A stretch of 53,873 nt of DNA from an uncultured Faecalibacterium sp. (GTDB taxonomy: Bacteria; Bacillota; Clostridia; Oscillospirales; Ruminococcaceae): contig CALWZK010000009.1 in NCBI GenBank assembly GCA_944386015.1, positions 1 through 53,873 of the forward strand, read 5' to 3'. The notes beneath the pieces are model-generated. The model was not told the DNA's origin. It saw only the letters and a program-made list of their open reading frames with translations, and did no database searches. The translations under genes and the position numbers were made by a program. Each line of letters starts with the position of its first letter. Within the stretch, counting starts at the first letter, position 1. Shown here piece after piece: positions 20,080 through 22,639 of the stretch.

Positions 20080-20116
20080 CAGCCCGCAGCAAAAAAGCCG
20101 CTGCGGGCTGTTTTTT
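20080..20116 (+). terminator. Terminator of the DUF4358 gene
   Basis: CAGCCCGCAG pairs with CTGCGGGCTG, followed by six T residues. Confidence 0.9.
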
Positions 20117-20131
20117 ATGGGGAAATTATGC

Positions 20132-20137
20132 TATAAT
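20132..20137 (+). promoter_or_regulatory. -10 element before the glycosyltransferase leader
   Basis: A perfect TATAAT lies six bases before the first base of the structured repeat at 20143, so transcription should begin at the repeat's first stem. The -35 region (TGTTTT, 20109-20114) is poor. Confidence 0.5.
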
Positions 20138-20142
20138 ACTGA

Positions 20143-20341
20143 GCGTGTCGAACAACGACACGCTTTAGGGGGAACCCATTTCTGCGCGCAGCCGCGCGGC
20201 AGAAATTCCTTCCCCCTAATATCCCCCTGGGGACAAAATTTGGCGCAGAACCGCGCACTCGGCCTTGCGGCCTCGCACACTCTCTGCGCCAAATTTCCCT
20301 GTCGGTGTCCCAGCCGTACGCACATGTCGTCCGGCCGGGAC
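20143..20341 (+). repeat. 199-bp structured direct repeat, copy 1 (leader of the glycosyltransferase gene)
   Basis: The repeat folds into four successive stem-loops: GCGTGTCG/CGACACGC; AGGGGGAA/TTCCCCCT enclosing an ATTTCTGC stem; AAATTTGGCGCAGA (20236-20249) with 20283-20296 enclosing GGCC-TTGC-GGCC; and GTCCCAGCCG/CGGCCGGGAC. Copy 2 lies at 21451-21649 in the same orientation with 188 of 199 bases identical and no gaps. The two copies bracket the glycosyltransferase gene. Copy 1 occupies most of the predicted 5' leader. Confidence 0.9.
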
Positions 20342-20404
20342 GGTTTTCTGCATTGTGTGAAAAACAGGGGGCCGCCCGGCGGCCCCAAGGGACAGGAGCG
20401 GCGC

Positions 20405-21403
20405 ATGAAAGCAACCATCATCATTCCCAACATCAACGGCAAGGGCTGGCTGAAGGATTCCATCGAGTCGGTCTACGCCCAGACCGAGCAGGATTTTGAG
20501 CTGATCGTGGTGGACAACGGCTCCACCGACGAAAGCCTGGACCAGGCCCGCAGCTATTGCAGCCGGCCCAACTTCACCCTGATCGAGAACGGCCATAACA
20601 CCGGCTTTTCCCATGCGGTGAACCAGGGCATCGCCCGGGCCCAGAGTGAATATGTGGTGCTGTTCAACAACGACGCCTTTGCCGAGCCCGACTGGCTGGC
20701 CCAGCTGATCCGGGCCGCCGACAGCGACCCCAAGATTTTCGCGGTCCAGAGCCTGATGATCCGCCACTTTGACCGGGAGCTGGCCGACGACGCCGGGGAC
20801 TACGTCACCTGGATGGGCTTTGCCTGCAAGACCGGCGACGGCCGCCGGGCCAGCCGCTACACCAAACAGAAGCGGATTTTCTCGGCCTGCGGCGGCGCGG
20901 CCCTCTACCGGAAAAGCATCCTGGACGAGATCGGCGCCTTTGACGAAAACTTCTTCGCTTACTTCGAGGATGTGGACCTGAGCTGGCGGGCCAACAATGC
21001 CGGCTACAAAAACATCCTCTGCCCCGCCGCCAGGTGCTACCACATCTGCGGCGCCAGCACCGGCGCCGTCCGCTACAACGCCTTCAAGAGCCAGCAGAGC
21101 GGCCGCAACAGCATCCTGCTGCCCCTCAAGAATGAGCCCGTTCTGATGCTGCTGGTGAACGCCATCCCCCTGCTGGCGGGCTATCTGCTGAAGTGCTACA
21201 AGTTCCATAAGCAGGGCTTTGGCGAAGCCTGGGATAAAGGGATGCACGAGGCCTTCGCCATCCTGCGGGAGGGCCGGCTGGGCAAGCGGCCTTTCCGGCT
21301 GCGGGATCTGCCCCACTACCTTCACATGGAACTGTGGATGATCTGGAACATGGTGCCCTACCTGTGGTACCGGCTGGTGATTGTCCGCTTTGACCTGAAA
21401 TAA
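20405..21403 (+). CDS. Family 2 glycosyltransferase (rhamnosyltransferase-like)
   Basis: The 332-residue protein has a GT-A fold: TIIIPNINGKGWL at the start, VVDNGSTDES near residue 38, the DXD-like FNNDAF near 88 and the FEDVDLSWR motif near 190, which is usual in rhamnosyltransferase-type members. A hydrophobic helix near 240-262 suggests peripheral membrane binding. It would move a sugar from a nucleotide donor to a surface polysaccharide; donor and acceptor cannot be read. I use the ATG at 20405 (GGAGCGG upstream); the in-frame extension upstream runs through the structured repeat. It stands alone, not in a polysaccharide cluster, which is unusual. Confidence 0.85.
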   Translation: MKATIIIPNINGKGWLKDSIESVYAQTEQDFELIVVDNGSTDESLDQARSYCSRPNFTLIENGHNTGFSHAVNQGIARAQSEYVVLFNNDAFAEPDWLAQLIRAADSDPKIFAVQSLMIRHFDRELADDAGDYVTWMGFACKTGDGRRASRYTKQKRIFSACGGAALYRKSILDEIGAFDENFFAYFEDVDLSWRANNAGYKNILCPAARCYHICGASTGAVRYNAFKSQQSGRNSILLPLKNEPVLMLLVNAIPLLAGYLLKCYKFHKQGFGEAWDKGMHEAFAILREGRLGKRPFRLRDLPHYLHMELWMIWNMVPYLWYRLVIVRFDLK

Positions 21404-21415
21404 ACAAGTAAGCCA

Positions 21416-21449
21416 AAAAGACCGCCGCCCCGACTGGGGCAGCGGTTTA
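21416..21449 (+). terminator. Hairpin after the glycosyltransferase gene
   Basis: ACCGCCGCCCC pairs with GGGGCAGCGGT (one mismatch). Nearly the same hairpin recurs at 21664-21704, on the other side of repeat copy 2. The T run is short (TTT). Confidence 0.5.
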
Positions 21450-21450
21450 A

Positions 21451-21649
21451 GCGTGTCGTAAAACGACACGCTTTAGGGGGAACCCATTTCTGCGCGCAGT
21501 CGCGCGGCAGAAATTCCTTCCCCCTAATATCCCCCTGGGGACAAAATTTGCCGCAGAACCGCGCACTCGGCTTTGCAGCCTCGCACACTCCCTGCGGCAA
21601 ATTTCCCTGTAGGTGTCCCAGCCGTACGCACATGTCGTCCGGCTGAGAC
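21451..21649 (+). repeat. 199-bp structured direct repeat, copy 2
   Basis: It is a gap-free copy of 20143-20341. Eleven bases differ. Two pairs of these are compensatory: G20243-C20289 becomes C21551-G21597, and C20264-G20269 becomes T21572-A21577. Most of the remaining changes lie in loops, or make or break one pair. This copy has no obvious promoter or downstream gene on its strand. Confidence 0.9.
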
Positions 21650-21663
21650 TTTTTGACAGTATA

Positions 21664-21704
21664 AGACCGCCGCCCCGGTTTGGGCAGCGGTCTTGCTTTT
21701 TGTA
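21664..21704. terminator. Hairpin after repeat copy 2
   Basis: AAGACCGC(C)GCCCC pairs with GGGCAGCGGTCTT, followed on the plus strand by GCTTTTTG. It probably ends the plus-strand transcript; it also lies just past the minus-strand gene at 21713-22639. Confidence 0.6.
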
Positions 21705-21712
21705 TGGGTTTT

Positions 21713-22639
21713 TCAGGCGGCGGGGCTGGCAGCAGTGTCGCTGGAAGCCGCTTCACTGGAAGCCGCCGGCTCTGCGGTGCTGGAAGCTGCCTCGCTGGAA
21801 GCAGCCTGCTCCGAAGCGGCAGGGGCCGAGGCGGCCTGGCTGGAGGCGGCGCCGGGGTTCACACCCGACAGGATGGCATCCTGGAGCTGGTCCGGGTCCA
21901 TCATCACCACCGAGTTGGCCTGCTGGGAGGAGGCGGCTGCCTCCGGCTTGGTGGCGCTCTCGGTGAGGCCGGTGAGGTACCAGCTGCCGCTGGTCCGCTC
22001 AAACAGGTAGTCCATGTACTTGGTGGGGGTGTCGGACTGGGTGCTGATCAGGTCGCCCTCGGAATTGATGGGGATATAGCCCACCGTCACGTGGAGCTTG
22101 CCCCCCTCCTTGAACATCTTGGTGACCTGGGCCCGGTAATAGCCCACCACGCCGGTGACCGGGATCTTGTAGCACTGGCTGTTCTCGTCGAACTCGACGG
22201 TCATGTCGTCCATCTCAAAGCTCTTGTGGGTCAGCTGGAAGGAGGGGCCTACCAGCCGGGCCAGATAGGCGTCCACATCCACCGCCGGCAGCAGCAGCTG
22301 CTCGGTGTCGGGGTCGTGGGCGTAGTTGTCAAAGTTGCCCTGGGTCTCCTGGATGCTGTAGATGCAGCCCCAGACGGCGGCTTCCCGCAGGGTCAGGTCG
22401 TCGATGTTCTCGATGCCGTCAAAGGGCAGCGGGTCAAACATCACCAGCCCTTCCAGCTTGTCCTGGTATTCCTCCATCTGTTTGGTGTTGTCAAACAGGG
22501 AGGCCAGCAGCTGGTACCCTGCCCCCAGCACCGTAAAAATCCCGATGACCAGCAGCACCGCCATCACCAGCCCCAGTGCCTGGCGCCGGCGGCGGCGGTG
22601 GATCCGTGCGTGTTCCTCCGGGGTAACATAACTTCTCAT
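21713..22639 (-). CDS. Membrane-anchored protein of unknown function with Ala/Ser-rich tail
   Basis: The 308-residue protein starts with a basic cytoplasmic stretch (HRRRRRQ), has one membrane helix (about 20-46), and an extracellular domain (about 50-235) with YIPINSEGDLIS and SGSWYLTGL segments that recall small stress- or transfer-associated extracellular domains (NTF2-like fold is possible). The last 70 residues are a low-complexity EAASS/PAASSEA tail that may act as a wall spacer. I do not recognise a named family. It is transcribed away from the threonine aldolase-like gene, with about 220 bases of shared upstream DNA. Confidence 0.6.
   Translation of the reverse strand: MRSYVTPEEHARIHRRRRRQALGLVMAVLLVIGIFTVLGAGYQLLASLFDNTKQMEEYQDKLEGLVMFDPLPFDGIENIDDLTLREAAVWGCIYSIQETQGNFDNYAHDPDTEQLLLPAVDVDAYLARLVGPSFQLTHKSFEMDDMTVEFDENSQCYKIPVTGVVGYYRAQVTKMFKEGGKLHVTVGYIPINSEGDLISTQSDTPTKYMDYLFERTSGSWYLTGLTESATKPEAAASSQQANSVVMMDPDQLQDAILSGVNPGAASSQAASAPAASEQAASSEAASSTAEPAASSEAASSDTAASPAA

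Follow-up and report, generated by a model that had tools for sequence, protein, structure and literature searches.

A folded 199-bp repeat of Faecalibacterium is probably a miniature transposon of the IS1182 type that inserts at terminator hairpins

The 199-bp unit that occurs twice around a putative glycosyltransferase gene in the window (the whole stretch of 53,873 nucleotides analyzed here, from an uncultured Faecalibacterium sp.) is, with a probability that we put at roughly 0.87, a non-autonomous MITE that an IS1182-type transposase mobilizes and that inserts at the feet of DNA hairpins. This is the most likely reading because hairpins are duplicated beside the copies, an empty site exists, the ends are inverted, and IS1182 elements have like ends and like duplications. 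Insertion with an empty site, duplication of a whole hairpin, and like ends plus duplication in intact IS1182 elements of the order were all observed. The original prediction had offered an RNA regulator, a structured mobile element or a pair of arms for recombination; the second of these held and is refined here to an IS1182-type MITE, the RNA regulator is less favored, and the recombination arms found no support.

RESULTS

Two insertions of different age at the glycosyltransferase locus

The features of the locus are as follows.

20132..20137, + strand: -10 box TATAAT of the glycosyltransferase gene; it predates the element, a similar box being found in element-free relatives
20141..20157, + strand: left terminal repeat of copy 1 (NAGCGTGTCGAA..), which resembles the IS1182 end CAGNCTGTCRAAAAA
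20143..20341, + strand: copy 1, the older one, in the 5' leader of the glycosyltransferase gene
20143..20163, + strand: hairpin 1 of copy 1 (fold and family alignment)
20165..20219, + strand: hairpin 2 of copy 1, a two-storey stem (fold and family alignment)
20236..20296, + strand: motif A hairpin of copy 1, with the internal loop ACCGCGCACTC / CTCGCACACTC
20307..20341, + strand: motif B hairpin of copy 1, with apical CACATGT, terminator-like, its T-run broken (GACGGTTTT)
20406..21403, + strand: putative glycosyltransferase gene between the copies (name from the first reading; matched in 31/31 genomes of the genus)
21418..21446, + strand: left copy of a duplicated terminator hairpin (direct repeat D19; single in genome G001)
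21451..21649, + strand: copy 2, the younger one, 3' of the glycosyltransferase gene
21451..21471, + strand: hairpin 1 of copy 2, including the left terminal repeat
21473..21527, + strand: hairpin 2 of copy 2 (family alignment)
21544..21604, + strand: motif A hairpin of copy 2 (family alignment)
21615..21649, + strand: motif B hairpin of copy 2, terminator-like, T-run present (family alignment)
21650..21662, + strand: right terminal repeat of copy 2, TTTTTGACAGTAT; the family consensus is near TTTTTTGACAGTCTG
21663..21691, + strand: right copy of the duplicated terminator hairpin (direct repeat D19, 90% identical, score 20)

As predicted, an exact comparison of 20143-20341 with 21451-21649 gave a gap-free alignment with 11 differences at the named positions, and copy 1 (20143-20350) indeed folds into four stem-loops, at -104.9 kcal/mol (z -8.1), a value that none of 200 shuffles equaled. 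Two compensatory pairs had been claimed, and both exist. The first (20243/21551 G>C with 20289/21597 C>G) belongs to the regular pairs of the family, with 66 GC, 25 CG, 2 AU and 14 unpaired at columns 139-193 of the alignment A1 (n = 107 copies). The second (20264/21572 C>T with 20269/21577 G>A) closes a loop of variable length, is standard in 59 of the 99 copies that have letters there and is thus more weakly supported; misalignment of this loop may contribute. By our own reading of the alignment, the differences at 20336/21644 and 20338/21646 create or abolish pairs of the last stem and do not compensate each other.

The view that the repeats bracket the gene as a unit did not hold; the two inserted at different times and belong to a set of about 18 copies that this genome contains. 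Copy 1 is common to two sister species, since it lies at the same site in G001 and also, degraded, in G024, whereas copy 2 is missing in the nearest sister species. Copy 1 does form most of the glycosyltransferase leader, as had been proposed, and a TATAAT/TATACT-type box also precedes the gene in element-free relatives. In an ortholog comparison, among the matches listed from 30 orthologous loci, these relatives have the similar box followed directly by the gene; therefore, the element went in between promoter and gene. The terminator of copy 1 is damaged in all three genomes: the T-run is broken in the window, the stem has a mismatch in G001, and the 3' part is gone in G024. This pattern suggests that read-through was selected for at copy 1. 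A flanking duplication was looked for at copy 1, and none was seen. In some element-free genomes, another folded repeat (of the GGGGGAGCTGTC.. type) lies near the glycosyltransferase ortholog (L156, L166); it resembles the interior of a second short MITE (L385) described below.

A dispersed family within the genus

The genome that contains the window has 28 matching pieces, which were grouped as about 18 elements plus one contig-end piece; 8 of the elements are short, like those in the window, and 10 have different or additional hairpin modules. A search of 61 related genomes gave matches in 11 of 31 of the same genus and in 0 of 30 of other genera. Copy numbers reached at least 40 in G016 (best 40 of 78 first-look candidates scored), at least 40 in G004 (best 40 of 96) and at least 34 in G021 (best 40 of 41); G014 had 14 matches with 18/18 candidates scored. 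An exact pattern scan of named genomes returned 42 stretches, all 42 titled Faecalibacterium, and several of the species names refer to chickens; the isolates An121 and An122 are among the carriers. The element was absent from viral contigs (exact core pattern), plasmids and phages.

The copies measure about 160 to 480 bp and leave no room for a transposase; they are thus short, dispersed and without coding capacity, as is typical of a MITE. No longer copy with a coding insert was present among 127 short and 15 long paired copies (24 more pieces were unpaired); 11 regions with odd or lone element ends were taken, one of which (L180) was read for genes. At L010 (G000:C66), two middle modules are tandemly repeated within one element, which suggests that elements grow by module duplication. 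The end at L028 (G000:C48) and the start at L010 look like halves of one long element on different contigs, and this element seems to have been split by an insertion sequence with the ends GAGCACCTAACAAAACC / GGTTTTGTTAGGTGTTC.

The core is conserved as Watson-Crick hairpins

Covariation in an alignment of many copies was the test on which the original prediction had staked the functional structure, and it turned out to be strong. The alignment A1 contained 107 copies (105 of 128 short copies plus the two of the window; near-duplicates and three rows were left out), and its 60-pair structure is paired in 96.3% of cells. Changes on both sides occurred in 36 of the 60 pairs, in 653 cells, compared with an average of 202 in shuffles, a control that can be inflated by the relatedness of the copies, and at most 92 in slid structures, a control that preserves relatedness.

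Nearly all pairs obey the Watson-Crick rules: 5768 cells were Watson-Crick, 33 G·T, 88 A·C and 136 others. In conserved C columns, C>T was found in 11/2628 paired cells but 61/2886 unpaired ones; in paired columns, this change corresponds to G·U in plus-strand RNA. The values for G>A in conserved columns were 28/2544 paired and 20/749 unpaired cells. Wobble tolerance on the transcribed (plus) strand was thus not seen, and since G·T cells (33) are rarer than A·C cells (88), the data speak for Watson-Crick hairpins rather than an ordinary plus-strand RNA. Constraint on DNA hairpins, or homogenization of hairpin arms, fits better than plus-strand RNA; this is a tendency and not a proof because alignment cells are not independent events, and a constraint seated in minus-strand RNA would also be compatible with the counts. 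The proposed role as an RNA regulator of the glycosyltransferase lost ground on the same evidence, plus-strand G·U pairs not being favored.

A scan of the window with Rfam 15 gave zero families at the gathering score. With the limit relaxed to E 1, three weak matches appeared in 20080-21720 (1.6 kb), none near its own gathering score; the best, BcKCsr2, on the minus strand of copy 2, reached 25.4 bits, where the gathering score is 40, and was taken as chance. At another element (L006, G000:C10), a symmetric exchange (TG..CA to CG..CG) distinguishes the two flanking terminator copies; therefore, compensatory change occurs even in a duplicated target.

Whole terminator hairpins can be duplicated on insertion

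Direct repeats were counted in 115 of 131 clusters, those with a 3' end and flanks. Repeats of 17 to 42 bp, above the 99th percentile of the null (score 10), lie beside 27 of the 115 copies; 21 of these 27 fold alone at -8 kcal/mol or better, and 26 do so with a margin of 6 nt. In 17 of 19 cases with the element start matched, the repeat ends 1 to 5 nt ahead of GCGTG, and on the right side most repeats restart immediately past GACAGTCTG. The base before GCGTG is A in 71 of 76 element copies. A detectable duplication was absent in 88/115 copies, copy 1 being among these. Under other limits, duplications were found in 16/72 copies with hairpin 1 and 3/43 without, against 9/1000 for mismatched flanks. 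Statistics of right-flank hairpins did not separate elements from controls and were left unused.

Empty sites were found for two of the insertions. Where the window has two terminators with copy 2 between them, G001, whose gene is 95% identical, has one. Likewise, L140 (G014) has two terminators, in a perfect 30-bp duplication, where L129 (G021) has one. Insertion with target duplication and an empty site, as in a MITE, was thus found both for copy 2 and for L140. The comparison of L033 with L138, a more distant relative, agrees with this pattern, and in the comparison of L065 with L210 the native terminator is gone entirely.

Copies with and without hairpin 1

Of 117 copies with sufficient flank, hairpin 1 is present in 74 and missing in 43, and the latter therefore have no left end either. 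A stable hairpin lies directly to the left in 43/74 copies with hairpin 1 and in 2/43 without it, and any of four control windows was as stable in 18%. An upstream stop codon within 120 nt was found for 53/72 copies with hairpin 1, at a median of 54 nt, and for 32/42 copies without it, at a median of 4 nt. Both forms occur behind one and the same gene: G013 has the hairpin-1 form between two terminators, and G016 has the other form and no native terminator (L034, L073). We read the class without hairpin 1 as copies that lost a redundant terminator together with mobility; the alternative is insertion by hairpin replacement. Counts of downstream gene orientation are unreliable in GC-rich DNA and were not used.

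The ends point to an IS1182-type transposase

The ends of the element are short inverted repeats of the form CAG..TGTCRAAAAA, with CAGCGTGTCGAAAAA, frequently with one additional C, on the 5' side and the 3' consensus given above. The terminal repeats, NAGCGTGTCG..AAAA against the reversed 3' end CAGACTGTCAAAAAA, are short and imperfect, as in a MITE, and the 5' end differs from CAGCCTGTCGAAAAA, an end of the IS1182 kind, at one position.

An IS1182 transposase above the curated cut-off is encoded in 29 of 394 genomes of the order. We examined 35 of 51 fetched IS1182 loci (28/28 from the order-wide search and 7/23 from an earlier one; the other 16 were fragments). Twelve of the 35 carry CAGNCTGTCRAAAAA at either end, with no more than 2 mismatches in 30. 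Nine of these 12 are bordered on each side, without a gap, by the same hairpin of 27 to 39 bp, which is the target behavior of the short element; two of the nine (L457, L458) come from the same family as Faecalibacterium. Three of the 12 (L451, L455, L456) are flanked by stable hairpins that differ between left and right, as though the flanks had recombined between copies or diverged. Furthermore, a clear inverted end pair was found in 4 of 6 named plasmid copies of the IS1182 family: CAGACCGTGTAAAAACG (ISPa7), CAGAGTGTGTAAAAACA (ISPmo1-like), CAGACCGTGTGAAAAC (Paracoccus) and AGACTGTGTGAAAACTC (Leptolyngbya). These likenesses suggest that an IS1182 transposase moves the element.

No autonomous IS1182 with the ends of the element was found in Faecalibacterium, where the seven loci examined have other ends; the absence of a partner weighs little because the assemblies are drafts. 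The nearest locus of the genus (L239) shares CAGACTGTC; this IS1182 copy looks intact, has the related end CAGACTGTCTAAC and lies in an element-negative Faecalibacterium (G020). In six genomes, the 3'-end 12-mer with one mismatch gave no IS-sized inward pair with a transposase by eye, and the sole IS-sized inward pair seen, in G014, had no transposase-like frame by eye. Of 23 exact TGACAGTCT sites in the collected loci, one lay outside an element, within a gene region. A search of viral contigs for relatives of the G020 IS1182 transposase gave 44 pattern matches and 0 confirmed. IS1634 makes long duplications; as a mobilizer it was rejected, with weak matches in 3/31 genomes of the genus and 0/31 over the cut-off.

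At E 0.1, none of the 35 IS1182 loci contained the folded core. The element therefore does not represent a plain internal deletion of one of these insertion sequences, and the core serves the MITE as cargo or as a recognition unit rather than being a piece of an IS among those loci. Among 128 viral-contig loci picked by end sequence (IMG/VR), two other short MITEs, L441:2579-2737 and L385:4365-4567, have the same or similar ends, duplicated hairpins and different interiors. Three IS1182 copies of the genus with the ends GGAGCTGTTGACAAA (L235 in G014, L236 in G021 and L234 in G004) lie, by eye, within the loop of a hairpin, and in two of the three the 5-bp loop (GCTTC, GTTTT) seems to be duplicated, which corresponds to the "loop" branch of the published model.

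Traces of the core outside the genus

A model of the core (R1), which took in 39 of 41 diverse cores, was run as a covariance search on 394 genomes of the order, with the best 9 candidates scored per genome. Three genomes of Faecalibacterium matched strongly, and five genomes from three other families matched weakly (E 1.2e-4 to 0.0099 per genome); about 4 genomes are expected at E 0.01 by chance, so that the core scores alone prove nothing. One of these loci (L298, G220) combines CAGCGTGTCGAAAAA with the core, TTTTTTGACAGACACAGACTG and a terminator of 26 bp that is duplicated. Another (L299, G186) has a duplicated terminator and the ends CTGTCGAAAAAC and TTTTTTGACAAACTG, and a third (L301) has the hairpin GCGTGTCGATTACGACACGC and motif B. 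In another family, the core lies close 3' of genes, without transposon ends (L297, L300, L305 and L310 in G072 and G187), in G187 in three places.

The unpaired motifs GCGCAC..GCACAC and RCATGYC are found again in further families of the order. A loop-motif pattern, composed after the order-wide core sequences had been seen, found 8 cores in 398 kb chosen around known cores: six known ones and two new ones, both in G220 behind AGCGTGTCGAA hairpins. The pattern misses L299 and L301; as background, it occurred once in viral contigs totaling 1083 kb and once in 210 kb from other gut-genome loci. The cores aligned poorly across families (A3), and this alignment was not turned into a model.

DISCUSSION

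Under the MITE reading, the element would enter at the foot of a hairpin, above all at rho-independent terminators 3' of genes, and the target would probably be recognized as an extruded hairpin. If the two strands are attacked at the two feet, the whole hairpin would be copied and the element would come to lie between two terminators, one of which might then decay. The copies without hairpin 1 (43/117), which where callable begin a few bases past the stop codon, may be immobile, domesticated 3' ends of genes. Copy 1 would represent an insertion between promoter and gene whose terminator was damaged, perhaps through selection for read-through. The folded core might be retained for pairing or recognition during transposition or for a role as RNA.

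If the structure were selected as RNA, in a cis-regulator, a 3' UTR element or a small RNA, mobility would be incidental. The strong covariation (653 cells compared with at most 92 in slid structures), the loop motifs recurring across families of the order and the stop codons a median of 4 nt ahead of copies without hairpin 1 agree with this; plus-strand G·U is disfavored, though, in pair cells as well as in C>T counts, and Rfam has zero matches at the gathering score. We regard a functional RNA of this kind as unlikely. A modular repeat like BOX, or a MITE of a different enzyme (RAYT/Y1 or another DDE family), is quite improbable: the ends and the hairpin duplication match IS1182, IS1634 stayed below the cut-off in 31/31 genomes of the genus and Y1/RAYT insertion is not known to duplicate targets, against which stand the 10 of about 18 elements in the own genome with other or extra middle modules, reminiscent of boxA-boxB-boxC.

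Terminator targeting, duplications of variable length and the missing 5' part of many copies might also be explained by a retro-element, either a remnant of a group IIC intron or target-primed reverse transcription of an RNA at terminators. Such an origin is very improbable: the inverted ends are shared by a DDE transposon that is bordered on either side, with no gap, by its duplicated hairpin, a general scan of the window against Rfam gave no match, and no copy was seen that is long enough for a reverse transcriptase; moreover, group IIC introns are not known to duplicate the hairpin. Finally, the two copies bracket one gene in direct orientation, as a composite unit mobilizing or recombining around the glycosyltransferase would. 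This is barely credible, because G001 and G024 have copy 1 at the same site while G001 lacks copy 2, and because the gene keeps its upstream neighborhood in several genomes without either copy; the proposed pair of recombination arms is unsupported for the related reason that the copies differ in history. We therefore return to the IS1182-type MITE as the preferred explanation.

A further-reaching scenario, which we consider possible but doubtful, is that a hairpin-seeking branch of IS1182 in this order of gut bacteria acquired the core (motif A, GCGCAC..GCACACT, and motif B, RCATGYC) and spread it behind genes across several families, and that copies without mobile ends were kept beside stop codons as portable 3' ends acting on the mRNA, by termination, stability or protein binding. 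On this reading, the core would be a module distributed by a transposon and endowed with a hidden cellular function. The insertions described here are natural cases of structure-directed transposition in which the entire target hairpin is copied. By landing at terminators and bringing its own terminator-like hairpin, a mini-transposon can multiply with little harm, and the large set of insertions lends itself to asking how terminators get duplicated, lost and replaced.

In the literature on repeats, MITEs and structured RNAs of Faecalibacterium, the element is not described in the titles and abstract openings among the matches listed, and the same holds for the literature on hairpin and terminator targeting by insertion sequences. 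The duplications in the ISfinder tables range from 0 to 60 bp for IS1182; long IS1182 duplications may therefore already be on record. Like the RNA families of Rfam 15, the core has a conserved secondary structure with covariation, and none of these families matches the window at the gathering score. A further comparison is with the pneumococcal BOX elements (PMC3049150). These are also modular, intergenic, folded and multi-copy and have optional middle modules; the ends and the target of the Faecalibacterium element point to IS1182 instead. The IS1182-derived MITEs of Methanosarcina (ISMac2), of 160 and 169 bp in 14 and 7 copies, are likewise short non-autonomous derivatives (PMC3852290), but their duplications are 4 and 0 bp as the table columns appear to state, and neither hairpin duplication nor folded cargo is mentioned in the available part of that source. 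The IS1182 family, including IS1272, targets hairpins and terminators, according to the accessible parts of PMC5678879 and PMC4923244, and has ends alike, CAG..TGT....AAAA, in 4/6 of the named plasmid copies and 12/35 loci; compared with it, our element is without a transposase gene and has a folded core that is missing in the 35 IS1182 loci scanned. On insertion of IS1272, the target hairpin is deleted (PMC4923244, as far as available), so that the stem-loop is replaced without duplication, whereas the Faecalibacterium element duplicates the whole hairpin, a course that the 2017 paper on IS1272, in its available part, had drawn as a possible branch of its model.
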